Virus record (IMG/VR): IMGVR_UViG_3300035182_000599
Location: 1 to 41,818 of that record
Length of the DNA: 41,818 nt
Strand: one strand, 5' to 3'
From: a virus
The translations under genes and the position numbers were made by a program. This document shows positions 1 to 41,818 of this stretch, in pieces. Within the stretch, counting starts at the first letter, position 1, and each line of letters begins with the position of its first letter. The notes below the pieces were generated by a model. The model saw nothing but the letters and a program-made list of their open reading frames with translations. It was not told the DNA's origin and ran no database searches.

Positions 1-111
1 CTAGTTTATCCCTCCCAAGCCCAGCCGCCCCAGCCGCCCCAGCCGCCCCAGCCGCCCCAGCCGCCCCAGCCGCCCCAGCCGCCCCAGCCGCCCCAGCCGC
101 CCCAGCCGCCC
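1..111. repeat. Left copy of the 111-bp terminal direct repeat
   Basis: Bases 1-111 match 41708-41818 at every position except the fifth (T here, G at 41712). Both copies hold a 21-base lead-in followed by ten 9-base units. The coding frame is continuous across the join, so this is a circular or circularly permuted genome opened inside a tandem repeat. A physical terminal repeat is less likely, because linear ends here would cut a gene. The number of 9-base units may be an assembly minimum. Confidence 0.85.
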
Positions 112-534
112 ACGGATGGCCAGGATGACTCAGGACAGGCTGAGGATGGCCAGGATGACTCAGGACAGGCTGAGGATGGCCAGGACGACTCAGGACAGGC
201 TGAGGATGGCCAGGATGACTCAGGACAGGCTGAGGATGGCCAGGATGACTCAGGACAGGCTGAGGATGGCCAGGATGACTCAGGACAGGCTGAGGATGGC
301 CAGGATGCACCGGGTGGTAATGGTTCCGGCGGCCCTGAGCCTATCCGTCAACCCTTGCTGGATAGGCTCCAGACCGTGGCCGATGCCCTAGCACAAGAGG
401 CAAACGGCGCCGCATCACCTGATTATGGCGCGATGGATGATAAGACCGCTGCATTCCTGACCCGTGCGAAGGTTATTCAAATCCTAACAGCTCCAGTCAC
501 GACCTACATCGTGGAGGATTGGCCCAATGTCTAA
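1..534 (+). CDS. CobT-N-like HExxH protein, C-terminal part (continues from 40928-41818)
   Basis: This is the 3' part of a gene that starts at 40928 and runs off the right edge. With one terminal-repeat copy removed the product is about 437 residues. This part encodes ten Gln-Pro-Pro triplets, then six copies of a ten-residue acidic repeat DGQDDSGQAE, a Gly-rich hinge, and a C-terminal helical stretch of about 75 residues ending WPNV. In the cobaltochelatase subunit CobT an acidic linker joins the N-terminal region to the VWA domain; here the frame stops after the linker and the VWA domain is the next gene. The TAA at 532-534 overlaps that gene's ATG at 527, so the two are probably translationally coupled. 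The repeats are nearly identical at DNA level, which points to recent expansion. No function is proven; linker or scaffold is inference. Confidence 0.8.
   Translation, partial: LVYPSQAQPPQPPQPPQPPQPPQPPQPPQPPQPPQPPTDGQDDSGQAEDGQDDSGQAEDGQDDSGQAEDGQDDSGQAEDGQDDSGQAEDGQDDSGQAEDGQDAPGGNGSGGPEPIRQPLLDRLQTVADALAQEANGAASPDYGAMDDKTAAFLTRAKVIQILTAPVTTYIVEDWPNV
22..111 (+). repeat. Tandem repeat, ten 9-bp units encoding Gln-Pro-Pro
   Basis: The unit CAGCCGCCC is repeated ten times without a change, in frame, giving (QPP)10. The same ten units appear at 41729-41818. Exact 9-bp units allow copy number to change without a frameshift, so linker length can vary between isolates or reads. Confidence 0.95.
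115..294 (+). repeat. Tandem repeat, six 30-bp units encoding DGQDDSGQAE
   Basis: Six head-to-tail 30-bp units run from 115 to 294, followed by a partial seventh. Only the third unit differs visibly (GACGAC instead of GATGAC), and that change is silent. Each unit encodes ten mostly acidic or polar residues. Near-identity at DNA level indicates recent duplication or ongoing homogenisation. Confidence 0.95.
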
Positions 535-1291
535 AGCCCTTGCCCTAACTCCCGGCGCCGCCCTGCTCACCCGCCTCTGGCGTATGCGAGGCCAGGACAC
601 GCCCTACCTGTCAGACAGTGGCGAAGAGTTTGACTCTGAAGCCCTGGTATCGTTCCGTGCCAATCGCGACCCGCGCGTTTATCAGGACCCGCGACAATCT
701 CGCAAGGGAGAGCGCGTCAAGCTGCACATCCTGATTGATTGCTCCGGTTCTATGGCAAACTGCGGCCGTGGCGCGGCCGCTCGCGGTCTGGCCATCATGG
801 CCGCTCAATCGGCGGTTCTGGCAGGCATCGAGGTTCATCCTATCGCCTACGGCTCTGTGATCTACCAGCTTCCCGTGGTTCGTTCCCTGGCCCATGTTCA
901 AGGCCTGGAGTCATACCTTAACCATCACGGCTCCAATTTTGGTAGCACAAAGACCGACCGTGCCCTGGCCCTGGCCTATCAGACCGCCTTAGCTGATCCC
1001 AGCGCCGCTCATGTTGTTCTAGTGATTACCGATGGTTCGCCAGATTTGGTTCAAATCTCAAGATCTGGCGGTGGACGCGCGGAACAGTCCGCCGATGGAC
1101 GCTGGACAGTCCGCGCGATGGTTGAAACCCTGGTGGATGCTGGTGTTGAGACTTTCGGTTTTATGGTCAGTGATGATCCCTCGCTGGCTAATAAGGTTAA
1201 GACTTGCTTTGGACCTGACCGCTATGCTGTAGCGGCCGATGATCATAGCGCGGCCCTGGCCCTGGCGGCCGTAGTCGAAAGGTTCATCTAA
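527..1291 (+). CDS. VWA-domain (MIDAS) protein, CobT C-terminal-like
   Basis: The 254-residue product has a von Willebrand A fold signature. The metal-ion-dependent adhesion site is D71-C-S73-G-S75 (DCSGS) after a hydrophobic strand, a Thr-containing segment lies near GSTKTDRAL, and the third motif VLVITDGSPD supplies the last Asp. The approach sequence (RANRDPRVY then KGERVKLHILID) resembles the start of the CobT VWA domain. In CobT and other MoxR partners this domain binds metal or substrate and docks on the AAA+ ring. Its ATG overlaps the preceding stop by 8 nt, with a GGAGGA ribosome site inside the upstream gene, and its own stop overlaps the next start (TAATG). It most likely works with the ATPase at 39505 and the HExxH protein. 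A role in cobalamin synthesis is doubtful because no other pathway gene is present. Confidence 0.85.
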   Translation: MSKALALTPGAALLTRLWRMRGQDTPYLSDSGEEFDSEALVSFRANRDPRVYQDPRQSRKGERVKLHILIDCSGSMANCGRGAAARGLAIMAAQSAVLAGIEVHPIAYGSVIYQLPVVRSLAHVQGLESYLNHHGSNFGSTKTDRALALAYQTALADPSAAHVVLVITDGSPDLVQISRSGGGRAEQSADGRWTVRAMVETLVDAGVETFGFMVSDDPSLANKVKTCFGPDRYAVAADDHSAALALAAVVERFI

Positions 1292-3690: not shown

Positions 3691-6251
3691 TGCGGTTCGC
3701 CACCATCCCGCGCTCCAACCGTCCCGAAGCCATCACCGCCCACTCCGTCCAGGACTGGCGTGAGTTTGTTGATTTCCTGACGGACCCGACCAATAACACT
3801 TTCTGTTCCAAGCCTGTCGAAAATACGGCTGACGCCAGGAAAGAGCAGGCGCCCGGCTTCATCGGCGCCTATCTGGACCCTGACGCTGGCGGCGCCTGCC
3901 GGGAAGCTGTGAAGGCCGTGGGCTTTCTTCATGTGGACATCGACTTCTACGAGGAAGTGGCCGAGTTCATCCCCAGTCCTGATAAATCCAAGCCTGGACG
4001 CATCGCCAAGTCCAAGCGGCGGGTTGAAACGGCCATCACCAAGATCGAACAGGTGCGTGATGTCTTCCAGAAGGCCGGAGTTCTGGCGGCCATCTACGAG
4101 ACTCTGAGCAGCGCCCCCGAAGCCATCCGCGCGCGCGCCCTGGTGCCCCTAGACCGTGAGGTAGCCCCGGAAGACGCCCCCAAGGCGTTCTCTGAACTGA
4201 TGGCCTTCCTGGAGCCTCTTGCGGCTGCCATTGACATCGGCGTGGGCCTGCGTGTGGGCGGTCATGTGTATATGCCGATGGGCGCGCCGGTCCTGGAGAC
4301 CGTCGGCTGCGACCCCTTCGCCCCGGAACTGCTGGGCGAGGTCATGCCTCCAAGGGAACCTATCGGCATGGCAGAGGCCAGGAAACTCCTGAAGAAAGAC
4401 CGGAAACACCTGGGCGTGGCCTCCGACTTTGAGAACGGCGACCTGGAAGACTGGTATCAGCGGTTCATGATTGACTTCAAGACGCTGGACCTGAAGGCGG
4501 CGCTGGAGGAAGTTGGCTGCAAGGTTGGCCGGGCCAGAAATATGGGCAACGGGACAGTGAAATACCCCTGCACTTGCCCCCTGGCCGAAGAACACACCCA
4601 GGGCAAGACCCACCGGGATGAAGCTGTCTTGTTCATCAACGGCGAAGGCGTCTGGCCATCGTTCCAATGCCAGCACTCCCACAAGGTCACTCTGAAAGAG
4701 CTTGTCCTGGGCACGGTGGATGGCACCGACCCCGTGCTGACCCAGGAGATTCTGAGCCGCCACGCCGCCGCCTGGACGCCAACGATGGCCCCAGCCGCCG
4801 TGGAACGGGCGCAGAAGATCAGGGCCATCCAGCAAGAGTCAACCAACGGGCTAGGCCCTTGGTTCCCGCACACCATGATCAGGCGCGAAGACACGCTGCC
4901 CGATTCGATGATCAAGACCAATCCCAAGACTGGTGCCGTGAGCATCAACTTCCCTGCCACCGCCGCGAACCTGTGGTATATCGTCCAGCACGATGAGCGC
5001 TTCAAGAATCTGCACTTCTGCGAAATGCGCGGCATCACCTTCCTGGATGACAAGCCCTTCACCGATGAAATGATCGGCCGCATCCTGATCCAGCTTTCGG
5101 CCGACTACCAGTTCAGCACCAAGCCTGATGATACGAAACTCTACCGGACCATCTGCACAGCCTCCCTCTTGAACAAGAGGTATTTACCAACTGAGTATTT
5201 AGAATCCCTGCCCATCCCGCAGAGGAACGATGCTGAGTTTGATAGGATCGTTGTCGAACACCTGGGCGTTGACCCGCTCTGTGTTCAGGACGCCGCGCTC
5301 TACCTCAAGCACTTCGCCGTGGGCACCGTGGCCAGAGCGTTGGCCCCCCGTGCTGAGTTTGACGACACCGCCAAGATGGATGACATGATGATCTGGCAGG
5401 GCGGCCAGGGTTCCGGCAAGTCAACTTTCGTGCGCTCTATGGTCCCGCAGGCGTGGATGAGCGTGGAACTGAACCCGCCCAGCAACGGGCGCTACGACAC
5501 CGTGGCTTATGTGGCCATGATCCAGCGCGGTTGGATCAACGAGATGGGCGAGGTTGACCGGGCGTTCAAGCACTTCAATGAACTGAAGGCTTTTCTCTCC
5601 ACCCGCGCCGATGTGGTCCAACTTAAATACCTGAACGGCTCTGTCGCGTTCCCCCGCCGCTGCTCGTTCATCGGCACCAGCAACGGTGATGCCCTCCTTG
5701 AAGACCCAACTGGCAACCGCCGTATGTTCATCATCCGGTGTGCTGTGACGCCTGGCTTTGTCATCAAGCCCCTGACTCCGTTGCAGAGGGACGCCATGTG
5801 GAGCGCCGCTGTCGCTGCTTGGAAGGCCGGTGATAACTGGTGGCTGACCAAGGATGAGGAACGCCGCAAGGATCTGACGGACGCAACCAGCAACCACAAG
5901 CTGGGCCAGGATTCGCTGGTTCACTGGATTGCGAAACAGCTTCTCAAGCAGGCCCCTGATTGGACATCGCCTTTCGCCTATATGGACCTGATGGAGCAGA
6001 TCAAGGGCCGCTTCGCTGGCGATCCCGAAGTCTCGCCCAACAATACCAATGTGGGCAAGGCCCTCAAGTTTCTGGCTGTCGATGATCTTCGGACTGTGAA
6101 GCGCATCGGCACCCGCGTTGAGTCTGGCCCTCGCATGAAGCGCGTGACCTTCAAGACTTGGGAGATTGCGCGCGGTCTTGGCATCGTGGGTATGAGCGAA
6201 GGCCCGGCCACCGCCGCTGACTTCGAAGCCATCCTGGAGAAGAAGTCATGA
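3687..6251 (+). CDS. PrimPol-VirE-type primase-helicase
   Basis: The product is 854 residues. The N-terminal third looks like an archaeo-eukaryotic primase/PrimPol: LHVDIDF carries the D-x-D metal pair (D84, D86), followed by a basic stretch and SSAPEAIRARALVPL. A central segment (VKYPCTCPLAEEH, then SFQCQHSHK) resembles a zinc-binding primase finger. The C-terminal part is a VirE/D5-like P-loop helicase, with Walker A GGQGSGKS at 572-579, NEMGEVDRAF as a plausible Walker B region and IGTSNGDALLEDPTGNRR as the sensor/finger region. The protein should prime and unwind DNA at the phage fork. It overlaps the zinc-ribbon stop upstream and the PP-loop gene downstream (ATGA), forming one operon. 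A start at the second Met (3690) cannot be excluded. Confidence 0.85.
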   Translation: MMRFATIPRSNRPEAITAHSVQDWREFVDFLTDPTNNTFCSKPVENTADARKEQAPGFIGAYLDPDAGGACREAVKAVGFLHVDIDFYEEVAEFIPSPDKSKPGRIAKSKRRVETAITKIEQVRDVFQKAGVLAAIYETLSSAPEAIRARALVPLDREVAPEDAPKAFSELMAFLEPLAAAIDIGVGLRVGGHVYMPMGAPVLETVGCDPFAPELLGEVMPPREPIGMAEARKLLKKDRKHLGVASDFENGDLEDWYQRFMIDFKTLDLKAALEEVGCKVGRARNMGNGTVKYPCTCPLAEEHTQGKTHRDEAVLFINGEGVWPSFQCQHSHKVTLKELVLGTVDGTDPVLTQEILSRHAAAWTPTMAPAAVERAQKIRAIQQESTNGLGPWFPHTMIRREDTLPDSMIKTNPKTGAVSINFPATAANLWYIVQHDERFKNLHFCEMRGITFLDDKPFTDEMIGRILIQLSADYQFSTKPDDTKLYRTICTASLLNKRYLPTEYLESLPIPQRNDAEFDRIVVEHLGVDPLCVQDAALYLKHFAVGTVARALAPRAEFDDTAKMDDMMIWQGGQGSGKSTFVRSMVPQAWMSVELNPPSNGRYDTVAYVAMIQRGWINEMGEVDRAFKHFNELKAFLSTRADVVQLKYLNGSVAFPRRCSFIGTSNGDALLEDPTGNRRMFIIRCAVTPGFVIKPLTPLQRDAMWSAAVAAWKAGDNWWLTKDEERRKDLTDATSNHKLGQDSLVHWIAKQLLKQAPDWTSPFAYMDLMEQIKGRFAGDPEVSPNNTNVGKALKFLAVDDLRTVKRIGTRVESGPRMKRVTFKTWEIARGLGIVGMSEGPATAADFEAILEKKS

Positions 6252-7207
6252 CGCCCAAAGAAGAACTGAAGATGCGACAAGCCTACCCGTTGAAGGCCAA
6301 GGTCGAACTCACCAAACTCAGGATCAAACAATTTTATGAGTCGCAGAATGGTCAAGTCTATGTCGCTTTCAGCGGCGGCAAAGACTCCCAGGTGTTGTTG
6401 AGGATGGTCCGTGAACTCTATCCAGATGTTCCTGCCGTGTTCAGTAATACAGGCTTGGAATATCCAGAGATCGTAGCCCACGCCAAGTCATTCCCGAATG
6501 TGACTGTGGTTCGACCGAAGATGAGTTACCAACAGGTGATTGATAAATACGGGTATGCGGTCATCAGCAAGAAGGTGAGCCGCATGATCTACTACTTCAT
6601 CAGACCCACGGAGAACAACATCAACACGCGGAACCTTCGCATGACCGGGATCACCGAGGATGGCCGGCCCATGCCTCACATGAAGATCCCTGAGAAGTGG
6701 AAATATGTGCTGGCCGCGCCGTTCAAGGTCAGCGACCAATGCTGTGACGCCCTGAAGAAAGAGCCGATGGACAGCTACGCCAAGGTCAGCGGCCGCGTTC
6801 CCTTCATGGCAACGATGGCTGAAGAATCAAGCACCCGCGCCCTGTCTTACGAGAGGCTGGGCTGTAATGTGGTCGGCACTAAGAAGGATCGCTCTACCCC
6901 AATGGCGTTCTGGACGAACCAAGATGTCCTGCGCTACATCGTGGAGAACGACCTGAAGACCGCCAGCGTGTATGGGGACATCGTGGAGAACCCTGTCACC
7001 AAGTTGCTGGCCACGACTGGAGAGTCCAGGACCGGGTGCATCTGGTGTCTGTTCGGAGTTCAGTTTGATTCGAAGAATGGCAAGCTGAATCGCATCCAGC
7101 GCCTCGCCGTGACGCACCCCCAACTTCACAAACATTGCACCACCGTCCTGGGCTTGGATAAGGTTCTGGAGTTCATGGGAATCCCGTGGAAGATCCCTGA
7201 AAAATAA
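6248..7207 (+). CDS. PAPS reductase-like PP-loop protein
   Basis: The 319-residue product has the adenine-nucleotide alpha-hydrolase P-loop AFSGGKDSQ (S42-S47), then FSNTGLEYPE, as in the PAPS reductase/DndC superfamily. A conserved-looking Cys set follows: DQCCDALKK, then TGCIWCLFG, which could hold a metal or Fe-S cluster. Phages often carry such proteins, whose roles include sulfur transfer, DNA phosphorothioation-like chemistry or sulfate metabolism. No dnd-type partners are present here, so I do not assign a reaction. It overlaps the helicase by 4 nt (ATGA). An AT-rich promoter-like gap follows it. Confidence 0.8.
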   Translation: MTPKEELKMRQAYPLKAKVELTKLRIKQFYESQNGQVYVAFSGGKDSQVLLRMVRELYPDVPAVFSNTGLEYPEIVAHAKSFPNVTVVRPKMSYQQVIDKYGYAVISKKVSRMIYYFIRPTENNINTRNLRMTGITEDGRPMPHMKIPEKWKYVLAAPFKVSDQCCDALKKEPMDSYAKVSGRVPFMATMAEESSTRALSYERLGCNVVGTKKDRSTPMAFWTNQDVLRYIVENDLKTASVYGDIVENPVTKLLATTGESRTGCIWCLFGVQFDSKNGKLNRIQRLAVTHPQLHKHCTTVLGLDKVLEFMGIPWKIPEK

Positions 7208-10868: not shown

Positions 10869-11312
10869 ATGAGCGAAACCGTTTGCCCCTTCTGCCACCG
10901 CCCCGATGGCGCTGGCCACACGATTGTCTGTATTTCCAAACAAGCTTTGGAGGTCCTGGCGCCCAACATCGAAGCTGGAGCAAAGTATCTGACGCGCCAG
11001 CAGGATGACATCGCCAACGCCTGGGAACAGCGCTTGGCCCAGGTGAAAGCCAACTCTATTCTCCAGGAGGCCGAGTCCCTGGTGAACGGTGACCGGCACG
11101 AAGCCTACGGCGCGGCCGCCGAGAACTTCTCCCACTGGCGGGATATGTGCCGGGCCACCGGACGCCCCGGCCTGGCTGGGATCAGCGCCGAGGATCTAGC
11201 CGTAGCCATGATCTGTCTCAAGGTCTGCCGCAACACCGTGAAATACAAGCGCGACAGCACGGTGGACGGAGCCGCCTATTTCGAACTGTGGGATCAGGTC
11301 CAGGGGCTGTGA
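10869..11312 (+). CDS. DUF6378-type phage protein with N-terminal zinc knuckle
   Basis: From the ATG at 10869 the product is 147 residues (a TTG two codons upstream is possible). The N-terminus has C-x2-C-x-R and GAGHTIVC, a likely zinc knuckle. The C-terminal 85 residues carry the typical pattern of DUF6378: ILQEAESLVNGDRHEAYG, AAENFSHWRDM, LAVAMICLKVCRNTV, KRDSTVDGAAYFEL. The family is common in tailed phages and, from its helical pattern, has been thought to resemble all-alpha NTP pyrophosphohydrolases; I cannot confirm that. Its TGA shares bases with the polymerase start (TGATG), so the two are coupled. Confidence 0.7.
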   Translation: MSETVCPFCHRPDGAGHTIVCISKQALEVLAPNIEAGAKYLTRQQDDIANAWEQRLAQVKANSILQEAESLVNGDRHEAYGAAAENFSHWRDMCRATGRPGLAGISAEDLAVAMICLKVCRNTVKYKRDSTVDGAAYFELWDQVQGL

Positions 11313-13765
11313 TGCTTTACCTCCGCACCAGGACGCAATACTCCAGCGAACAGGGCAAGCCCAAGGGCACCGGCACCGTCCAGGATCTTGTGGACTTCGC
11401 CGTGAAGAACAAGATGGAAGCCATCGCCCTCACGGACACCAACTGCTTCGGCCACCGGGAGTTCCAAGAGGCTTGCCTGAAGGCTGACATCGAACCAATC
11501 TTCGGGATGGAGTTCCAGTGGCCGCACGGTATCGGCACTCTGCCCCGCGTGGCGCTGGCCAAGAACCAGGACGGTTTGCGCGAACTGTATTCCATGAAGG
11601 CCGGGGATCAGGTCAGCGATGACATCATGCTCCTGTCACCGGCGCTGGATGGCCCGGCCTATATTTTCGAAGAACAGGAAACCCTGCACGGACTCCGCTG
11701 GCCCAATGACGCCTATGCCATCTACCCCCGGCACCTGTGCGAATACAACGCCTTCCCCTCCCGCGATCTGCGCCACTTCTCTCCGGTCAGGATCCCCAAG
11801 GCCCAGCCGCCCCAGGTTCCAGGCATGGACATTCACAAGGTCTGCTTGTCCCAACTTGCCATTCGCTACCCCGGCCAGGGGCCTGAGTATCAGACCCGGC
11901 TGGACCGGCTGGCTCTGGAGATGAGAGTCATCAGATCCAAGGGCTTCGAAGGGTATTTCCGAATTGTCTCTGAGGTCTGCGACTGGGCAGCGAAGGTTGG
12001 TATTTCTCAAGGCCCTGGCCGGGGGTCTTCCTCCGGTTCCCTCGTTGCCTTCCTGCTGGGCATCACCGAGGTTGACCCCATCAAGCACGGTCTTCTCTTT
12101 GAACGGTTCCTGGACCCCAGCCGCACCGATATGCCTGACATCGACCTGGACTTTGAGGATAAACGCCGTGACGAAATCTTCACTCACTTGGAAGACCTTT
12201 ATGGCCCAGCTAGTGTGGCGCGAGTTGGAACGGTTCTCACCCGCGCAGGCAAAGCGGCTTTGCAGGATGGGCTTAGGGCGCTTGGCTTGCCTCAGAGCCT
12301 TGGCGATGGTGTTAGGGACCGGGTTCAGATGCGACTTGCCGGTGAGGAAGGGGCGCCGGACACGCTCCAGAAGGCCCTAGAAGGCTCCCAAGTAATCAGC
12401 CCCATCATCGCCAGTCTCCTGCCCCTGGAAGGAACCGTGAAGGCCCTGGGGCAACACGCTGCTGGCGTCCTGATCGCCCCCGGAGAACCCCTGTCGAAAT
12501 ACTGCCGGGTGGAGAACGGTGTGGCCCAGCTTGATATGCGGGACGCTGAAGCCCTGGGTCTGCTCAAACTGGATTGCCTGGGCCTTCGGACCCTGACCGT
12601 GCTGCGCGACTTCCCCTGGCCCGGCAAGTTGGAAATGGAACCGGAGCCGGAAGATTTTGAAGACGCCCAGGCCAACCGCTGGCAGGGGGTATTTCAATTT
12701 GAGGGCGGTTCCCTGCGGTCCATCGCCCATCAGGTCCCGCCCGTTGAGTTCAACGATCTGGCCATCATCAGCGCCATCGCCCGACCTGGCCCGCTGGCCG
12801 CTGGCGTGGCCGATGCCTACAAGCGGCTCAAGCTGTATGGCGAGAAACCCCAGGCCCCCGCCTTGATTGCCCCCTATCTGACTGAGACTCACGGGCTGAT
12901 GATCTATCAGGAACAGGTCATGGCGTTCTTCAAGGGGCTGGGCCTGCCCGATACCACCGTGACCAAACTCAGGAAGGCCATCGCCAAGAGCAAGGGCGCC
13001 GCTGGGCTGGAGGTTTTCAAAGCCGAATACTTGAAGCAGGGTCAACAGTCTCACGCCGAGAAAGCCCTGCTGGAAGCCTGGGACTTCATCCTTGGGTGCG
13101 GTGCCTACCTGTTCAACAAGTCTCATGCCGTGGCCTATGCGTGGTTGTCCTGGGCCTGCCTCCGTGCCAAGCGGGTCAACCCCCTGGAGTTCTACGCCGC
13201 CTGTCTGAACCACACCACCGGCACGGACCAGGGTATTGAACTGATTCGGGAAGCCAGGAGTCGTGGGTTCGTGGTCAAACTGTTCGACCCTGAACTCTCC
13301 GACACTGGTTGGACCGTCCAACGCGGTGAACTGATCGGCGGCTGGTGTGACAAGCCCGGCATCGGCCCCAGCCGGGCAGAAACTTACATGAAGCAGATCG
13401 AAGATGGAACCCCCAGTGAGGGATGCAAGAAGGCGATGGCCCTGCCTTCGGTTTACGACACGATGGACAAGGTGGACGCGGTGCGGAAAGCGTTCAACCT
13501 GCCGCCCATCACGCGGGTCATCGAACAGCAGGGCGTCCGGTTCGTTGGCGTCCTGGACTACATCAAGGAATTTGCTGGGGCGAAGGGCGCCAGGTGGGTC
13601 CTGCGAATCGGTGACGAAACCGGGAGCCTGGAAATCTTCTGCTCCGGCAAGACGGTTGAGCAATACAGGTCCGTGCTTGAGAGTATGGTAGTCGGGCAAG
13701 CCTACTGTCTGGAGGCCAGCCTATTTCAGTCCAACGGTAAATATTATTTCAGGAGCGTCCTGTGA
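11312..13765 (+). CDS. DNA polymerase III alpha-like replicative polymerase
   Basis: I start at ATG 11312, which shares bases with the preceding TGA. The product is 817 residues, clearly shorter than the bacterial subunit of about 1,160. The C-family palm is intact: GPGRGSSSGSLVAFLLGITEVDP (starting at 234, broken here by the phage residues listed), PDIDLDF with D276 and D278, and LGLLKLDCLGL with D421. The fingers region NKSHAVAYAWLSW is present, and an OB-fold-like C-terminus ends the protein. The N-terminal PHP domain keeps its shape (ALTDTN, PIFGMEF) but the usual metal ligands H-x-H and TDH are missing, so PHP nuclease activity is probably lost. The DnaQ-like gene at 9015 would then provide proofreading. 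Confidence 0.9.
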   Translation: MLYLRTRTQYSSEQGKPKGTGTVQDLVDFAVKNKMEAIALTDTNCFGHREFQEACLKADIEPIFGMEFQWPHGIGTLPRVALAKNQDGLRELYSMKAGDQVSDDIMLLSPALDGPAYIFEEQETLHGLRWPNDAYAIYPRHLCEYNAFPSRDLRHFSPVRIPKAQPPQVPGMDIHKVCLSQLAIRYPGQGPEYQTRLDRLALEMRVIRSKGFEGYFRIVSEVCDWAAKVGISQGPGRGSSSGSLVAFLLGITEVDPIKHGLLFERFLDPSRTDMPDIDLDFEDKRRDEIFTHLEDLYGPASVARVGTVLTRAGKAALQDGLRALGLPQSLGDGVRDRVQMRLAGEEGAPDTLQKALEGSQVISPIIASLLPLEGTVKALGQHAAGVLIAPGEPLSKYCRVENGVAQLDMRDAEALGLLKLDCLGLRTLTVLRDFPWPGKLEMEPEPEDFEDAQANRWQGVFQFEGGSLRSIAHQVPPVEFNDLAIISAIARPGPLAAGVADAYKRLKLYGEKPQAPALIAPYLTETHGLMIYQEQVMAFFKGLGLPDTTVTKLRKAIAKSKGAAGLEVFKAEYLKQGQQSHAEKALLEAWDFILGCGAYLFNKSHAVAYAWLSWACLRAKRVNPLEFYAACLNHTTGTDQGIELIREARSRGFVVKLFDPELSDTGWTVQRGELIGGWCDKPGIGPSRAETYMKQIEDGTPSEGCKKAMALPSVYDTMDKVDAVRKAFNLPPITRVIEQQGVRFVGVLDYIKEFAGAKGARWVLRIGDETGSLEIFCSGKTVEQYRSVLESMVVGQAYCLEASLFQSNGKYYFRSVL

Positions 13766-16168: not shown

Positions 16169-16678
16169 ATGACCAGTCCCTTCACCATCCCCCGCGTCAC
16201 CGTGCTGGCCTGGGAGTCGGCCGGTATCACAGACCGCCCCCACTACGAAGCCCTGGCGGCGATGGCCCATGATCTGAGCATCGCCATTGGCGAACAGCTT
16301 GGCATCGTAGGGCCTGACACCTGGATGGAACTGCCCGATGAAGTCAGGGCGCCCCTGACCGTCTTCGCTCAGCGGATCATTGAGGAACGGCTTTCGATGT
16401 CGGAGTTCCACGACCTCTGGTGCGAGAACCTTCTGGCCCAGGGCTACAACTTCGGCCAGGAAGACGATGACGAAGCCAAGACCTCCAGCCTGCTGGTGTC
16501 CTACCAGAACCTGCCGACCCCCACCCGCATCATGGATGCCTGCTTTGAAGCCGGGGTTCTGTTCATGTTCAGGGAGCGCTACCCCGTTCTATTCGACCTG
16601 ATGCCTGCCCAAAACTACCCTTGGGTTGAATACCAGCAGGGCAAGGGTATTATTTCGTTGGCGCCCAAGGGTAATTAG
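16169..16678 (+). CDS. RyR-like domain protein
   Basis: The product is 169 residues. The middle reads FHDLWCENLLAQGYNFGQ, then DDDEAKTSSLLVSYQNLP and TRIMDAC. This resembles the ryanodine-receptor repeat (RyR) domain: an H-x-x-W helix, G-W/Y-x-Y/F-G, a charged turn with Lys, and L-V-x-Y-x-x-L-P. RyR domains in bacteria and phages are suspected to bind small nucleotide-like ligands. The N-terminal 60 residues are unassigned. It follows the VRR-NUC gene by two bases and ends the main replication unit. Confidence 0.55.
   Translation: MTSPFTIPRVTVLAWESAGITDRPHYEALAAMAHDLSIAIGEQLGIVGPDTWMELPDEVRAPLTVFAQRIIEERLSMSEFHDLWCENLLAQGYNFGQEDDDEAKTSSLLVSYQNLPTPTRIMDACFEAGVLFMFRERYPVLFDLMPAQNYPWVEYQQGKGIISLAPKGN
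16626..16653 (+). promoter_or_regulatory. Putative promoter for the small-protein cluster
   Basis: TTGAAT (16626-16631) and TATTAT (16648-16653) are 16 bases apart, the best -10 match seen in the window. It lies inside the 3' end of the RyR-like gene, about 70 bases before the next ATG, which has a perfect AGGAGG. Confidence 0.5.
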
Positions 16679-34263: not shown

Positions 34264-34587
34264 TTAAATACCCGCCCGTTCATCTTCTCCATCGCTGTCG
34301 AACTCTGTCGGGACCAGACGCCCACGGGCGTCAACCTTGCCTGGAAATTTCACCGCAACTGCAAGCATATTGCGTAGATTTTCATAGGCGGCGGCTTCTC
34401 CGTCAGCCCAGGCCCGCTTGAACGGCCATAGGTGGCCGACCTCCGGGGTCATTGGCACCGGGGCTTTGGCCTGGGCTTCGGCCGCCTCCAACCATGCCAG
34501 GACCAGACGCCAACCCGGCTGTGCCTGAAGCTCCGCTAGGAGCCGCCGGGCCTCCGGCCCCTGCCATTCCTTGATCTGGATTTCCAT
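34264..34587 (-). CDS. Hypothetical protein overlapping the portal 3' end
   Basis: The product is 107 residues: helical start (GPEARRLLAELQAQPGWRLVL), a middle with WPFKRAWADGEAAAYENLRNML, and an acidic end. AGGAGG five bases before the ATG shows it is translated. The first 185 bases lie inside the portal frame, one of the longest overlaps in this genome. Size and place resemble the small gene between portal and scaffold found in other podophages. Function unknown. Confidence 0.7.
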   Translation of the reverse strand: MEIQIKEWQGPEARRLLAELQAQPGWRLVLAWLEAAEAQAKAPVPMTPEVGHLWPFKRAWADGEAAAYENLRNMLAVAVKFPGKVDARGRLVPTEFDSDGEDERAGI

Positions 34588-36340
34588 TCATACCTCCTGC
34601 TGGCTGGGAAGGGAAGATCGAAGGAATGTATTCCCCGAAGCCCTTCATCCTGAGAATCATCGCGGCGTAGGCTTTCCAGTCCATGCCCTGCTGAAGCGGT
34701 GGGATGGCGCCAAACGCCTGGGTAAGAGAAATCAATTCGCCCATCTTCGCTTGGTTCTGAGCCATGTCCAGCATCCCGGCGATGAATACCTGATACTCGC
34801 CCTGGATGACCGTCTGATCCACCGGCATCATCTGAGGCAGGGCACCTGGGTCCATCGGGTCGGACACACGAACCATTTCTTCCTTGGTCATGAACATCTG
34901 AGCCATGAGCAATTCCTGAGTGATGACTTCCTCCAGGAAGCTGAGTTCGAAGTTCTCAGCGATCAGACCGAACCGGGACTGGCCCAAACTGGCAACGATG
35001 GTCGCCTCCGTGGCACTGGCCTCACCCTGGCTATTGTTGATCAGGGCGCCCACGCCATCACTGAATATACCCTGAAGCATCTTCACTTCGTTGAAGCCCT
35101 GCATGGCCTGATCGGGGATGACGAAAGGCTCCGGCTTGGTGGTCATGTAGGGGAAGGCGGCGCCGGGGAAGGCCACGAACTCGCTGGGGTCAAATAGACC
35201 ATCGGGTTTGTAGAAGACCATCGGATTGATCGCCATGCCATTGGCCATGATGCTCTGGTTCATGCGGGTGTTGATCGCATCCTGGATGCCCAGGTTGCGC
35301 TCCAGAACGCCTCGACCAAGCGGGTCATTGGGGCTGGGGTTCCACTGGTAAATACCCATCGGGATACGGCTGGTGCTAGTGGGCATGACCTCCAGCCGGA
35401 TGATGTCGCGCTGGTTCAGGAGCGTAGCCACGCAGCAGGGGATGGTGACTTCGGTTCCGTCTTTGAACTTCACCGGGACATCACCCATCACCTGGATCAG
35501 TTCGTTCATCTGGTTGGTGCCCGTGCCCATCGGCAACATACTCAGACCAGACGCCTGATTCAGTTCGATTCGGATTGAATCGCTGGTGTCAGGGTCAAGG
35601 CTCGGTTCAGTGTTCTTCGGGATGGTGTAGCGAGAATACCCGAAATCGTCTTCCTTGCTGAGTTCCTTCAGGTAGGCATCGTTGCGCCGGAACTTCATGA
35701 ACCGCGCCGCCTGCTCATAGGGCCGGTCGGTCTGCACCACCATATCGAAGATGTTCACCGGTTGGACCGTTGGCCCCTGGTAGTTCACCACGCGCTTCAT
35801 GGGAGGCAGAGCGGGGAGCGCCTTGGGTTTCTCGCCAGTCAGCATGGCTGCGGCCTGACGCTGGGCATACATCTGTTTCATGGCGATGATGTCTGGCACC
35901 ATCCCGGCTTCCGTGGTCCAGTCCAGGACCCAACCTGAGTTGCCGCAGATGGCCGCCTGCTTTACGATCTGAAGCGCACTCTGCCTGAACTTGTTCCGGC
36001 GGTGGTAATACTTCAGGAGCGAAGTGACAGCCGCCGCGCCGTTCTGCTGTTCGTTGGGGTGCGTGGGCAGCGCCATGAAGAAGTCAGCGTTGGGCATGGT
36101 CAGCCGGACAAGCTGGGCCGATACGGTGTCCACGCCGTTCTCGGAGTCGGGGATGAAGCGGCTGGATAGGTCATCGCCGGACACGCCCGGCTCAGGGTCG
36201 GCGCCGAATTTCGATTTGGCGAACAGGAAACAGTCCCTCCAGATGGAAGTCTCTGTAAGCAAACGCCGCTGCTTTTCGCGCTTCCAACTGTCGAGAATCC
36301 ACGCCGCCGTGTGTTGGAGGTCCAAGCCTGGGATAATCAC
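34403..36340 (-). CDS. Portal protein
   Basis: The product is 645 residues from a GTG that overlaps the terminase stop. The N-terminal half (SRFIPDSENGVDTVSAQLVR, MPNADFFMALP, ICGNSGWVLDW) and the later stretch YQWNPSPNDPLGRGVLERN, MNQSIMANG, TKPEPFVIPDQ are typical of the large podophage portals that join head to tail. The C-terminal 70 residues are Gly/Pro/Ala-rich and flexible, and most of their DNA also codes for the 107-residue protein. It lies directly after the large terminase. Confidence 0.85.
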   Translation of the reverse strand: MIIPGLDLQHTAAWILDSWKREKQRRLLTETSIWRDCFLFAKSKFGADPEPGVSGDDLSSRFIPDSENGVDTVSAQLVRLTMPNADFFMALPTHPNEQQNGAAAVTSLLKYYHRRNKFRQSALQIVKQAAICGNSGWVLDWTTEAGMVPDIIAMKQMYAQRQAAAMLTGEKPKALPALPPMKRVVNYQGPTVQPVNIFDMVVQTDRPYEQAARFMKFRRNDAYLKELSKEDDFGYSRYTIPKNTEPSLDPDTSDSIRIELNQASGLSMLPMGTGTNQMNELIQVMGDVPVKFKDGTEVTIPCCVATLLNQRDIIRLEVMPTSTSRIPMGIYQWNPSPNDPLGRGVLERNLGIQDAINTRMNQSIMANGMAINPMVFYKPDGLFDPSEFVAFPGAAFPYMTTKPEPFVIPDQAMQGFNEVKMLQGIFSDGVGALINNSQGEASATEATIVASLGQSRFGLIAENFELSFLEEVITQELLMAQMFMTKEEMVRVSDPMDPGALPQMMPVDQTVIQGEYQVFIAGMLDMAQNQAKMGELISLTQAFGAIPPLQQGMDWKAYAAMILRMKGFGEYIPSIFPSQPAGGMNGNPDQGMAGAGGPAAPSGASGTAGLASGPGMVGGGRSPGQSPGANDPGGRPPMAVQAGLG

Positions 36341-37851: not shown

Positions 37852-38372
37852 ACGGCCTCCCTTTGCGCTGGGATATGGGCAGGAGACTCGGAAAGGGCAT
37901 CAGCCGTGGCGATGGCCTCGATTGCCTGTTCCTGAGCGCTGAGGGTTGGCAACGTGGTTGCGTCGATCCACCCTGGTCCCTGCTTGACCTCCCCGGCGGC
38001 TACCTTGCGGAACAGTTCGGTGATGATCGACAGGCCGGATGCCAGGGATTGCTTCTCAATCCTGGCTTTTCGGTCCAGAAGCACAGTGTCCCCGGCGAGT
38101 TTGAGAAGCTGGGACCTGTGTTTCACGGCATCCGTGGGCGTCATGGTCCTGAGTGAGTGCTGGACGATCTTTTCCAGGGCCTCTGCTGGGCTGTCTGCTG
38201 GGTCAGCGATGGGGTCTTCGGGAATTTCACGGGAGTCTAGCCACTCGCGGTATGCCTGTGACTTGGCCACATCACGCTGGGCCTTGGGGATCGCAACACC
38301 CGAATCGGTGGTGAAAACCTCCTTGTAGGAAGTTTCGAACTCCGGTGGGTAGGTTGAAATGGGCCGTGCCAA
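37848..38372 (-). CDS. terS: Putative terminase small subunit
   Basis: The product is 174 residues from a TTG with GGAGG six bases upstream. It is helical: KAQRDVAKSQAYREWLDSRE as a possible DNA-binding start, AEALEKIVQHSLRTM and DAVKHRSQLLKLAGDTV as an oligomerisation core. It is the first gene of the leftward late module and ends by overlapping the large terminase. The call rests mainly on position and size. Confidence 0.65.
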   Translation of the reverse strand: MARPISTYPPEFETSYKEVFTTDSGVAIPKAQRDVAKSQAYREWLDSREIPEDPIADPADSPAEALEKIVQHSLRTMTPTDAVKHRSQLLKLAGDTVLLDRKARIEKQSLASGLSIITELFRKVAAGEVKQGPGWIDATTLPTLSAQEQAIEAIATADALSESPAHIPAQREAV

Positions 38373-38760
38373 GGAACCTCCAGGCTTGGAGTGTAAGGCG
38401 AAACTATGGGTGGGGGAAGGTTTTTAACGAAAGGTTTTGAAATTTTGAAAATGGGTAGGCGTAGAAGTCCAGGAGGTAATAATTCATCCCTTCACCCATC
38501 GCCCCCCGGCGAGCGGAAACTACCCCCGGCCGCCTGCCTGATGCCCCCTGGCCATGATCGCAAGCCTATTTACATGGCGCGCGCCATCCATCAAGCCCTA
38601 AATACAGCTTGCCTAATAAATACCAGCATCTAAATACCCTCGCCTAATTAAAAACCTATGCCTATTTACCCCAGCCTCACGCCCTGCGCCTGGCACCCTG
38701 GAGCTGCACCTTGCCATCATACTTCATTACGCCTGGTATACTGCATTACGCCCTGATTAT
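38373..38760. other. Left part of the divergent control region
   Basis: No gene is supported. The stretch holds an AT-rich block (38420-38455), a perfect 14-bp palindrome ATGGCGCGCGCCAT at 38574-38587, and a cluster of six related AT motifs of the type CCTATTTA/TAAATACC between 38565 and 38670. CATTACGCC occurs twice, 19 bases apart (38725 and 38744). A TATACT at 38737 is a possible -10 without a clear -35. The leftward late promoter should lie here but I cannot place it. Confidence 0.5.
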
Positions 38761-38763
38761 AAG

Positions 38764-39037
38764 TGTTTCCGTATGTTTCCGTATGTATCCAGATGACGCG
38801 ATTTTTCGTAAATGTTTGGAAACATTACGGTGTTTCCACTGTTTCCATACTTTTAACATTTCATCTCGGGTATAGAAAAAGAGAGAGAATGTATTTTTAT
38901 AGGAGAGGTTAGGAAAACGATGTTTCCGGGGTTCATACCCTGGAAACAGGGTTATTCTGGAAACAGAATAACCACAAAATCCCACCTTGTTTCCATACCA
39001 TCCACCCATCACGCACCCGTATGTTTCCAGTGTTTCC
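38764..39037. repeat. Iteron-like array: eleven exact TGTTTCC motifs in 274 bp
   Basis: TGTTTCC begins at 38764, 38774, 38831, 38840, 38921, 38988, 39022 and 39031; its complement GGAAACA lies at 38818, 38942 and 38959. A variant (TGTATCC) is at 38784. The first three are 10 bases apart, one helical turn, and two other pairs are 9 apart. Several continue as TGTTTCCATAC or TGTTTCCGTA. One site forms the dyad TGTTTGGAAACA. AT-rich tracts alternate with the motifs. This is the pattern of an initiator (iteron) or operator array. Confidence 0.85.
38938..38973. repeat. Two adjacent hairpins with GAAA loops
   Basis: CCCTG-GAAA-CAGGG (38938-38951) is followed at once by TTATTCTG-GAAA-CAGAATAA (38952-38971), which can be extended with GG/CC at 38950-38951 and 38972-38973. 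In RNA both loops are GNRA tetraloops. Each contains a GGAAACA motif of the array at its apex. Confidence 0.8.
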
Positions 39038-39067
39038 ATACCCTCAAGATATTTTTAACTTTTCCCC

Positions 39068-39095
39068 TTGCCTATTTCCTCGCCGTTGATACTCT
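39068..39095 (+). promoter_or_regulatory. Putative promoter of the AAA/HExxH/VWA operon
   Basis: TTGCCT (39068-39073) and TACTCT (39090-39095) are 16 bases apart, after an A/T-rich lead-in (ATTTTTAACTTTTCCCC). The -10 style (TAC-CT) matches that of the coat promoter. The last TGTTTCC sites end only 31 bases upstream, so the array could control it. Confidence 0.5.
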
Positions 39096-39291
39096 TGGGT
39101 GGGGGAGTTTTTACTATCTGACATTAACCTGACAGAAAACACATTCTTGAGACAGATTCTCACCTTTTAACATCTCGGCACAGTCTTAACTCTTTACCAT
39201 CACCATTTACACTCTGAAAACACGATTTTTCAGAGCCTCCACCCACCAGGGTCATTCATTACCGGCCCTTTTAACTTTTCGGAGTCACCCC
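39096..39291 (+). other. Long leader of the AAA operon with a hairpin
   Basis: About 195 bases separate the putative promoter from the first gene. They contain CTGACA twice (39118, 39129), a CTTTTAACATCTCGG stretch (39164) that resembles 38852-38870, and a hairpin CTCTGAAAA / TTTTCAGAG (39212-39235, 6-nt loop). There is no gene here. The hairpin lacks a T-run, so a leader or binding role is possible; nothing more can be said. Confidence 0.45.
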
Positions 39292-39480
39292 ATGAAAACC
39301 CTCCCATCAACCCCCGGCGCCCTGTTCGCCCGCCCTGCCCCGCGCCCGAACACCAATAATTATAGTGAACCGCTCCCCGTTCATATTGACATTGAATGGC
39401 TCGGTTGCACTATGACGCTCCCCAACGGCGGCATTATCACCCGTGATTCGGTTATCGAACCGAATCACCTCTCTCTCTAA
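39292..39480 (+). CDS. Small hypothetical protein, first gene of the AAA operon
   Basis: The product is 62 residues with CGGAG eight bases before the ATG. The N-terminus is Pro-rich (STPGALFARPAPRPN), and the rest is a short beta-type domain (VHIDIEWLGCTMTLPNGG, IITRDSVIEPNHL). It ends 24 bases before the ATPase gene. No family is recognised. Confidence 0.65.
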   Translation: MKTLPSTPGALFARPAPRPNTNNYSEPLPVHIDIEWLGCTMTLPNGGIITRDSVIEPNHLSL

Positions 39481-39504
39481 CCTTCGGACACTGGAGCCCG
39501 AACC

Positions 39505-40935
39505 ATGCAAACGCTTCTCAATCCTGCATCCTCTGACGCCCTGCTCGTCATCCTGCGTCTGATCTGGCGCGGCCGCTTCAATATGGCGCCCCATCCTGAA
39601 GACCGGAGTATCGACCCGGCCACCTTCCCCGGCCTGGACGATACCCAGCGCCGCGCCCTGATCATCCGCGCCATGAGCGCATGGCCCCACGCCGAATGGT
39701 CTAAGGGTATCGGCTGGGCTATCTCGCAGGCCAATGCCGCAGCATCCGGCGGCACCAAGCGCGGCCCCGGCCGCCCTAAATACAAGGTCCCCGCCCCCAC
39801 GGCGCCCATCACGCCCCTGCCTGCGTCCAGCGCCCCGGTAAATTTACCTTCACCCGTGCGAGGCTACGCTGTGGCGCCTGATCCTACCTTCAACCCATCG
39901 CCTGACACGACCCACCTGGCACCCGCCCCGGCGCCTATCGCCATACCTGCCCAGCCCGTGGTCATTCCTGACCCGCCCCCGGTGGTCATCGTGGAAGATG
40001 CTGCCCCCGTGGTCGCCCCTGCCCCCGCCTATGTGCCCCAGCCCGGCGCCATTGACCTACGCGCGGCCCTGGCCCTGAACGGTTACATGGCGCCCCCTGA
40101 GATGACGCCCCTGCTCATGGTCCTTGAACACGCCTTGAATGCCGGCGCCCCTGTCCCGAACATCCTGCTTTCCGGTGAGTCTGGCACGGGAAAGACCGCC
40201 TTCGCCCTGGCCCTGGCCCGTGTCATGGGTGCCCCCCTCCACGCTGTCCCTCTGGCCCTAGGCACGACTACCACGCAGCTTATTGGTCAGCTAATCCTGG
40301 AAGCCGATGGTGGTTCCGCATGGCGCGATGGTTTCCTGCCCCGTGCCTACCGGCTGGGCGGTGTCCTGCTTCTTGACGAACTGGGTGCCGCCCAGGATGG
40401 CGTCTGTGCGGTGATGCACCCGGCCCTGGAATCCCCCCGGCGCCCTTTCCTGATCGCGCAGACTGGCGAGAGCGTCCAGCCTGCGCCCCTCGTCATCATC
40501 GGAACGGACAATGGTGCAGGAGTAGGCGCCGCATCGCAGAGAAACCGCCATACCACGGGCTTGAGCGCTGCCCTGCGTGAGCGCTTCACGCTCCAGCTAA
40601 CCGTGGAAGGACCCAAGGGTCCCGATATGATCAGCGCCCTGGTTAATCACCACGGCGTCAGCCTGGACCTGGCCCAGCTTGCCGAAAAAATCATGAGCGC
40701 CGGTCACTCCCTGGTTCAGTCCGGCGCTGTGTATTCCACCGCCTTCGGTTTCCGGCTGGCCGTGGCTTTCGCCAAAACCTGCGCGATGCTCACGCCCCGG
40801 CTGGACCTGCACAGCGCCGCCCTGGCGGCCGCTGACCTGACACTGGCCCTGTCCATCACAGAACCGGAGCGCATGATCCTAGGCGAAGCCCTGCGCCGCG
40901 TCCTGCCTGCCCCTAGCGAGGTTCCCAATGCTTAA
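39505..40935 (+). CDS. CobS/MoxR-like AAA+ ATPase
   Basis: The product is 476 residues. The N-terminal 80 residues are unassigned, followed by a short AT-hook-like patch (KRGPGRPKYK, 85-94) and a 90-residue Pro/Ala linker. The AAA+ domain has Walker A GESGTGKT (224-231), Walker B LLLDE (287-291 region), a sensor-like IIGTDN and the Arg finger LRERF. The order from Walker A to sensor (DGFLPRAYRLGGVLLLDELGA, then MHPALESP) is that of CobS/MoxR, which form rings that drive VWA partners. The linker with AT-hook is not part of CobS. Its stop overlaps the HExxH gene start by 8 nt. Confidence 0.9.
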   Translation: MQTLLNPASSDALLVILRLIWRGRFNMAPHPEDRSIDPATFPGLDDTQRRALIIRAMSAWPHAEWSKGIGWAISQANAAASGGTKRGPGRPKYKVPAPTAPITPLPASSAPVNLPSPVRGYAVAPDPTFNPSPDTTHLAPAPAPIAIPAQPVVIPDPPPVVIVEDAAPVVAPAPAYVPQPGAIDLRAALALNGYMAPPEMTPLLMVLEHALNAGAPVPNILLSGESGTGKTAFALALARVMGAPLHAVPLALGTTTTQLIGQLILEADGGSAWRDGFLPRAYRLGGVLLLDELGAAQDGVCAVMHPALESPRRPFLIAQTGESVQPAPLVIIGTDNGAGVGAASQRNRHTTGLSAALRERFTLQLTVEGPKGPDMISALVNHHGVSLDLAQLAEKIMSAGHSLVQSGAVYSTAFGFRLAVAFAKTCAMLTPRLDLHSAALAAADLTLALSITEPERMILGEALRRVLPAPSEVPNA

Positions 40936-41818
40936 TCCTCTGCGGATTTACGAGAACGACACGAATGTCAGCGCCCTGGCGCGCATCGTATCAGACGATG
41001 CTGGCGCGGCCCTGAATGTCATCGCTGGGACCAGTGTCAGCGCCCGGAATCAGACCGGCTCGGCCGCCTGGGTTGATGCTTGTGTGGTTCGTATCAATAT
41101 GCCGTCGCCTGAGGCCCTGGAACAGTTGGGGATTACCCTGAACGGCTTCAGGGGCTTGCTCGATCATGAGGCAGGCCACGCCCGGTTCAGTGAAGCCCCC
41201 AGCCCCAGCCTGATCACCAGCCATACCAAAAAAGTCATGAGCATGACCGAACAGGCCGGGTGCCCCTATTTTCTGCGCTGTGAACTGATCACAAGAACCA
41301 CATATGCCCATGCCCTCAATGTCCTGGAAGATCACCGCATGGAACACGCCCTGGCTAACGCCATGGCTGGCACCCGGACCCACTTGGACGCCTTGAACCG
41401 TGATGCCGCGCGTGTATTCGGTTCAGACCGCGCAGTCTTCGACGCTGGATATGTCAGCGTTAATTCCCTGATCTGGTGGTCCAGCATCTTCGCTAACGCC
41501 CTGCGCCCCCGGCCTGCTATCTCACGGGCTGAAGTCACCCGCCTGTTTAATGAAGCCAATGCCCCCGCCAAGGATGCCGCGCGGATCATGCCATCAGTCC
41601 TGCGCCTAGCTGGTCTGATTAATGGCGCGTTAGGTATCAAACCCACTAAAAAGGTCTATGCCCTGGTCGATGGTTTCCTTGTGGCAGTAACCGAGGAAGC
41701 CCACAAGCTAGGTTATCCCTCCCAAGCCCAGCCGCCCCAGCCGCCCCAGCCGCCCCAGCCGCCCCAGCCGCCCCAGCCGCCCCAGCCGCCCCAGCCGCCC
41801 CAGCCGCCCCAGCCGCCC
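40928..41818 (+). CDS. CobT-N-like HExxH protein, N-terminal part (continues at 1-534)
   Basis: The frame starts at ATG 40928, overlapping the ATPase stop, and leaves the window in frame with base 1. The first 265 residues are a predicted zinc-metallopeptidase-type fold: LDHEAGHARFSE has H80-E-x-x-H84, and NVLEDHRMEH (131-140) supplies a likely third ligand, as in the CobT N-terminus and related VWA-linked metallopeptidases. LIWWSSIFANAL and the following helices complete the domain. From residue 268 it becomes QPP repeats. Whether it cleaves protein or only binds metal or substrate is not known. Confidence 0.8.
   Translation, partial: MLNPLRIYENDTNVSALARIVSDDAGAALNVIAGTSVSARNQTGSAAWVDACVVRINMPSPEALEQLGITLNGFRGLLDHEAGHARFSEAPSPSLITSHTKKVMSMTEQAGCPYFLRCELITRTTYAHALNVLEDHRMEHALANAMAGTRTHLDALNRDAARVFGSDRAVFDAGYVSVNSLIWWSSIFANALRPRPAISRAEVTRLFNEANAPAKDAARIMPSVLRLAGLINGALGIKPTKKVYALVDGFLVAVTEEAHKLGYPSQAQPPQPPQPPQPPQPPQPPQPPQPPQPPQPP
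41708..41818. repeat. Right copy of the 111-bp terminal direct repeat
   Basis: This is the same 21-base lead-in and ten CAGCCGCCC units as at 1-111, with G instead of T at the fifth base (Gly-Tyr instead of Val-Tyr in the product). The lead-in follows coding sequence directly (KKVYALVDGF...EEAHKLGYP), so this copy is the one in natural context. Confidence 0.9.

Follow-up and report, generated by a model that had tools for sequence, protein, structure and literature searches.

Genes resembling cobS and cobT on a viral genome raise the question of what their products do there: do they insert cobalt, or do they work on proteins? The locus considered here lies on a 41,818-base virus contig, the whole of which is referred to as the window, and which carries terminase, portal, major head protein, holin, DnaE-type polymerase and primase/helicase genes. 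Viruses whose hosts belong to eight orders have been reported to carry CobST (PMC8651126). In the literature, a role in vitamin B12 synthesis has been ascribed to the CobST genes of phages (PMC8651126), and a study of archaeal tailed viruses regarded the annotation of cobT as a peptidase as a mistake (PMC8651126; repeated in PMC9503304). The combination of an AAA protein, a vWA domain and a metallopeptidase is itself already known (PMC7824862, PMC8651126): in jumbo phages, a MoxR AAA+ ATPase has been described together with a vWA protein that is fused to an N-terminal metallopeptidase (PMC7824862). The same is true for the separation of cobT into two genes, which has been published for the haloarchaeal virus HHTV-2 (PMC8651126).

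Three coupled genes across the joined contig ends

The two ends of the contig have 111 nt in common, with one mismatch. Therefore, the record either forms a circle or has redundant termini, and the gene for the second of the three proteins discussed here, P2, carries on through the junction to position 534. The right copy of this end overlap (41708..41818, + strand) contains a 9-nt tandem repeat (41727-41818) encoding a Pro-Gln-Pro linker. The three coupled genes, P1, P2 and P3, span the junction in this order, and neighbours are joined by overlaps of 8 nt on the + strand: ATGCTTAA at 40928..40935 holds the start of P2 and the stop of P1, and ATGTCTAA at 527..534 the start of P3 and the stop of P2. 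An initial annotation of this DNA had described three genes linked by matching 8-nt overlaps through the right edge, and both the coordinates and the overlaps were confirmed. Shine-Dalgarno-like sites are present at normal spacing ahead of each gene, namely GGAG for P1, GAGG 6 nt upstream of the P2 ATG (40918..40921, + strand) and GGAGG 9 nt upstream of the P3 ATG (513..517, + strand). The three genes are oriented opposite to the structural genes of the window, with the terminase block as their upstream neighbour on the other strand, and a search of 38300-41818 for sigma-70 promoter-like sites gave none.

P1 (39505..40935, + strand) is a CobS-like AAA+ ATPase of the MoxR class of 476 aa, as judged by matches to Pfam AAA_5 (E 7.8e-18) and, among the PHROGs, to phrog_249 (porphyrin biosynthesis/CobS; E 1e-25). 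It consists of a long Pro/Ala-rich N-terminal region and an AAA core at about residues 205-440, in which the Walker A motif GESGTGKT (40174..40197, + strand), with G, K and T columns that are invariant in the AAA alignment, and the Walker B motif LLLDE (40366..40380, + strand) are both present. Sequence matches of P1 in the PDB include midasin, NorQ, CbbQ and CobS. The AAA modules of midasin outscore even NorQ and CbbQ, so that P1 is assigned to the MoxR class only as a whole.

Several other genes of this phage may be mentioned. The portal gene (34403-36340, - strand) matches only cyanophages in the phage collection, at 22-25% identity, which places the phage outside the groups that are well represented there. 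A DnaE-type DNA polymerase III alpha (11309-13765, + strand) is encoded by this 42-kb phage, and dnaE also lies near the module in several other CobST-bearing phages and phage-plasmids. A predicted protein with a RyR domain (16169-16678, + strand; Pfam PF02026, E 1.9e-6) is unexpected for a phage of this size, and a PAPS-reductase-like protein (phrog_424) is encoded at 6248-7207 on the + strand.

A predicted zinc peptidase and a VWA protein on separate genes

The first part of the P2 gene (40928..41818, + strand) encodes a zincin-like N-domain (residues 1-262) and the start of a Pro-rich linker, and the second part (1..534, + strand; stop at 532-534) encodes the remaining linker and a C-terminal tail of 59 aa. 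As the join falls in a repeat of 9 nt, the reading frame is kept across it; the complete ORF counts 437 codons before its stop, with no stop inside (437 aa). The linker is made up of about 10 copies of the 9-nt repeat, which occupies 20-111 (+ strand) at the left end of the record, and about 6.5 copies of a 30-nt repeat encoding DGQDDSGQAE (114-307, + strand); these copy numbers, and hence the exact length of P2, depend on the metagenome assembly.

P2 alone had no Pfam match, and PF06213, the family of the CobT N-domain, was not matched by the window proteins or elsewhere in the record. PF13203 (DUF2201_N) was set aside as a home for the N-domain, a single weak plasmid match being all that was found. 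The relationship of P2 emerged from an HMM of 14 homologous N-domains built without the window, which recovered P2 at E 4.2e-8; among the controls, which were the window's own ORFs and 400 shuffled sequences, the best unrelated ORF scored E 0.1 and the best shuffle E 3.5 or worse. Within this domain are HEAGH (residues 80-84; 41165..41179, + strand), an HExxH zinc-site motif that is invariant in both N-domain alignments, and EDHRME (residues 134-139; 41327..41344, + strand), an EDxxxE motif presumed to supply the third ligand. In the alignment H80, E81, H84 and D135 are invariant and E134 and E139 nearly so, and an HExxH followed by EDxxxE at similar spacing occurred in only 4 of 100,000 shuffles of the P2 N-domain. 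The HExxH site is intact, as the initial annotation had supposed; the overall identity of P2 to its relatives is only 13-24%. Modelled singly by AlphaFold from a four-row alignment, the N-domain gave a structure too poor to be informative (pLDDT 38.7), and a fold search with it yielded no significant match. A weak match of the N-domain profile to the anti-CRISPR AcrIIA26 (PDB 9zq6 chain B; E 0.02) covers one short LEDxxIE stretch and may be due to chance.

P3 (527..1291, + strand) is a VWA-domain protein of 254 aa with a CobT-type C-terminal domain. Pfam VWA matches were weak, but a VWA HMM built without the window recovered P3 at E 4.2e-15, against the same controls as for P2. The protein starts just ahead of a conserved pre-VWA segment, which it includes, and its MIDAS is represented by DCSGS (DxSxS; residues 71-75; 737..751, + strand), in invariant columns of the VWA alignment, and completed by T141 and D169. 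Alignment of the VWA part of three viral relatives (phage CobT) with P3 by hhalign gave E 3.8e-7 and extends to the C-terminus. In a search with a low-confidence AlphaFold model of P3 alone (four-row alignment; pLDDT 45.0), the NorD VWA domain of the NorQ-NorD complex ranked first with a near-significant E of 3e-3. Furthermore, P2 and P3 both have weak matches to phrog_1576, P2 near the start of this profile and P3 further along it. Judged by these profiles, P2 and P3 both belong to the known phage 'CobST' family (MoxR ATPase plus metallopeptidase-VWA), and the earlier description of the locus as a CobS/CobT-like motor holds, with both the HExxH and the VWA part recovered by profile search.

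Relatives were found in phages of Microcystis, Gordonia, Brevibacterium, Prochlorococcus, Vibrio, Rhizobium, Roseobacter and Escherichia and in one uncultured gut phage. In these, an AAA gene adjoins or lies close to a gene for a protein of 580-850 aa with HExxH, a low-complexity linker and a VWA domain, and with EDxxxE in nearly all. The zincin and VWA parts are in one frame in 41 of the 46 rows of viral loci (38 contigs), and none of the 46 is split; three contigs are counted twice among the rows, and five rows are cut by a contig end, including one whose P1 and P2 are identical to those of the window. Both HExxH and EDxxxE occur in all 46 rows, a count that is partly circular since the search patterns contained parts of these motifs; in the N-domain alignment, HExxH is found in 17 of 17 rows from mobile elements and EDxxxE is near-invariant. 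Examples are the CobS/CobT pairs (phrog_249; phrog_459 'peptidase' or phrog_1576) of Microcystis phage Mae-Yong1326-1, T5S1 (Cobavirinae), Vibrio phage ICP2 and cyanophage P-RSM6. These have in common with the window an adjacent AAA+ gene, an N-terminal HExxH (mostly with EDxxxE), an acidic or low-complexity linker and a C-terminal VWA domain with MIDAS, but they combine zincin and VWA in one gene, whereas the window has two, strongly diverged genes. In Escherichia phage Cyrano, the CobT-like protein (L030 5944-8052) is annotated as dimethylbenzimidazole phosphoribosyltransferase, probably by confusion with the unrelated CobT enzyme.

In the window, the N-domain and the VWA domain are encoded by two ORFs (stop at 532-534, start at 527) rather than in one polypeptide. 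The initial annotation had CobT cut at its linker; the two genes and a cut near the linker are borne out, but the cut is not in mid-linker, as the linker and the 59-aa tail stay with P2 and P3 starts before the pre-VWA segment. The AAA/zincin/VWA module does recur in other phages, but with the two halves fused in all 38 judged contigs. This raises the possibility that an artefact of assembly or sequencing has produced the split and that P2 and P3 are truly one gene. Such an artefact would fit with the proximity of tandem repeats and of the contig junction and with the finding that no second contig was found over the P2/P3 junction. However, this junction (527-534) lies about 220 nt past the repeats, P3 has an ATG and ribosome site of its own, and its overlap with P2 has the same 8-nt form as that of P1 and P2. 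Moreover, the P3 frame has an upstream stop at 485, so that any frameshift would be confined to about 50 nt. Lastly, HHTV-2 shows an independent split. We therefore regard an artefact as quite improbable. Programmed frameshifting was also set aside, as no slippery heptamer was seen by eye at the junction and a ribosome site lies upstream of P3.

Because HHTV-2, the one precedent found for a split, has two genes too, the single polypeptide is the usual but not the obligatory form of the module. On re-reading, gp2 of this virus has HEVQH, LED and an acidic tail, gp3 is the VWA protein and gp10 the AAA protein. As in the window, the zincin and VWA proteins are thus encoded by separate neighbouring genes, but gp2 and gp3 are 219 nt apart whereas P2 and P3 overlap, an acidic linker is present in both gp2 and gp3 whereas it stays with P2 in the window, and the AAA gene is several genes away.

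In phylogenetic trees, P1 and P2-P3 of the window stand on very long branches without a supported group. Searches of the phage collection with P2 and P3 by tblastn identified no relatives, and scans of genome contigs with P2 and with a phage CobS gave no matches. Long branches, a split gene and expanded linker repeats would fit a decaying module that no longer works. Yet Walker A and B, HExxH, EDxxxE and the MIDAS are all intact and all three genes are preceded by ribosome sites, which makes decay very hard to believe. The P1-P3 operon is, as far as these alignments and profiles go, a diverged, split-gene member of a known module that is common in phages and plasmids.

The protease site in mobile elements and in cobaltochelatase

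The plasmid relatives are numerous. A Microbulbifer plasmid protein of the same build has matches in 3,180 plasmid records, of which 2,722 are typed as conjugative, although many of these matches concern the VWA part only and at least 80% of the query is covered in 858 of the records. At three plasmid loci (L019, L020, L021) the CobT-like gene is preceded by an AAA gene and a DUF3150 gene, and all three proteins keep HExxH and EDxR(I/M)E. Such plasmid proteins are annotated merely as VWA domain-containing proteins.

Cobaltochelatase CobS/CobT (9uka, 9ujv) resembles the window set in having a related AAA+ protein, N-domain and VWA domain, but its CobT is fused and works with CobN. In the two CobT proteins that were checked, each adjoining cobS and assigned to the chelatase by annotation, AFALR or SMALR replaces HExxH and ET or EQ replaces ED. 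The CobT N-domain nevertheless appears to be homologous to that of the mobile elements: hhalign aligned the two at E 1.6e-5 (probability 79%), and PF06213 is matched by some plasmid and phage members, in the case of the plasmid protein L020 above the cut-off. The homology rests on these two lines of evidence, because a profile built from mobile-element N-domains, with the chelatase rows left out, failed to find CobT among PDB sequences; a strong PDB match of another profile (A9) to CobT was set aside, as this profile held two CobT rows. Altogether, HExxH...EDxxxE is kept almost without exception in the phage and plasmid relatives and is lost in the two chelatase CobT proteins checked. HExxH is also lost in a Paraburkholderia paralogue and in an Acinetobacter plasmid member, which group in the VWA tree with chelatase CobT and ICP2 at moderate support (90/94), and ICP2 keeps HExxH but lacks the E of ED. 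The Acinetobacter protein (L026 4143-6071) is encoded by a large plasmid that carries dnaE, and a related query matches 115 Acinetobacter plasmid records.

These comparisons bear on the proposal, published for archaeal and other tailed viruses (PMC8651126), that viral CobST act as cobalt chelatase subunits which, together with a host CobN, raise the cobalamin supply. The kinship of P1 to CobS and that of phage VWA domains to CobT (PDB 9uka) are in line with this proposal. However, the peptidase motif of the mobile elements is missing from the two annotated chelatase CobT proteins. In addition, P1 scored 23.7 bits against the CobS equivalog TIGR01650, far below the cut-off of 558.55, the chelatase equivalog scores in general were not reached by the window proteins, and PF06213 is unmatched. 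A search of the record for CobN (PF02514) gave no match, in agreement with the earlier statement that the phage offers no cobalamin context, though the host may supply a CobN; ribonucleotide reductase is not encoded by the phage either. Cobalt insertion is therefore unlikely, and as an account of P1-P3 we find the chelatase proposal distinctly improbable. With the protease motif kept and CobN absent, the remodelling or peptidase reading already favoured in the initial annotation is to be preferred.

Proposed function of the module

VWA proteins are working partners of MoxR-class AAA+ rings. NorQ/NorD and CbbQ/CbbO share with the window set such a ring and a VWA partner, NorQ and CbbQ being among the PDB matches of P1 and the NorD VWA domain being the first structural match of the P3 model. 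In NorQD, which serves iron insertion into nitric oxide reductase, a VWA finger is reported to enter the AAA+ pore, and ATP hydrolysis has been proposed to twist and stretch the linker between the N-domain and the VWA domain; unlike in the window set, no zincin domain is described for NorD (PMC13036017).

Because of the NorQD mechanism, the PDB matches of P1 and the rank of NorD for the P3 model, we read P1 as a ring, P3 as an adaptor and P2 as a zinc peptidase. P1 would assemble into a MoxR-class AAA+ ring on which the VWA domain of P3 may dock, with the MIDAS holding a client protein. P2, a putative zinc metallopeptidase of the CobT N-domain or zincin kind, would take part in this complex as a separate chain, attached perhaps by its acidic Pro-rich linker and its 59-aa tail rather than by a covalent fusion to P3. 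Hydrolysis of ATP would then pull or twist the client so that P2 could cut it. The substrate would not be cobalt, and the likeliest clients would be host or replication-stage proteins early in infection. We infer the complex, the proteolysis, the client and the timing from the sequences, and the early timing from gene position alone: in the named phages, the module adjoins primase, helicase, polymerase, ligase or clamp-loader genes. On balance, we consider it fairly probable that P1-P3, rather than being a cobalt chelatase, form a machine that uses ATP to remodel proteins and includes a zinc peptidase, and that this machine probably works early in infection. Counter-defence, one of the candidate roles in the initial annotation, would be a further option.

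The same biochemistry could serve a late client, with the MoxR-vWA-metallopeptidase set acting as an assembly chaperone that matures structural proteins by proteolytic processing. This has been proposed, without a test, for group 2.2 jumbo phages, whose MoxR/vWA-metallopeptidase pair would have the same three activities as suggested here but differs in the fusion of vWA and peptidase and in the large genomes; a MoxR-vWA precedent without peptidase exists in the Acidianus two-tailed virus (PMC7824862), and in the window the terminase block adjoins the module, though on the other strand. However, in eight annotated phages or phage-plasmids the neighbours relate mainly to replication or metabolism, with no annotated virion gene within the stretch shown, and related proteins occur on thousands of mostly conjugative plasmids, which make no virions. 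A role in virion assembly therefore seems rather doubtful.

Beyond this locus, it is conceivable, though we put it forward only tentatively, that the 'CobST' modules of phages and plasmids generally work as zinc proteases that are driven by ATP and directed at host or replication proteins, that the chelatase is a branch in which the protease site was lost, and that in the present phage the protease and the VWA domain have had their covalent linker cut, the machine working without stretching of the NorQD type. The sequences considered here speak against the view that the peptidase annotation is mistaken, since the protease site is kept on mobile elements and lost in two chelatase proteins. If this is right, claims on B12 synthesis that rest on viral cobS and cobT need another look. 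The natural split at the linker offers a simple way of asking whether a covalent lever from the N-domain to the VWA domain is needed in MoxR/VWA machines, but it is the contrast between the protease sites of mobile elements and chelatases, more than the split itself, that merits attention.
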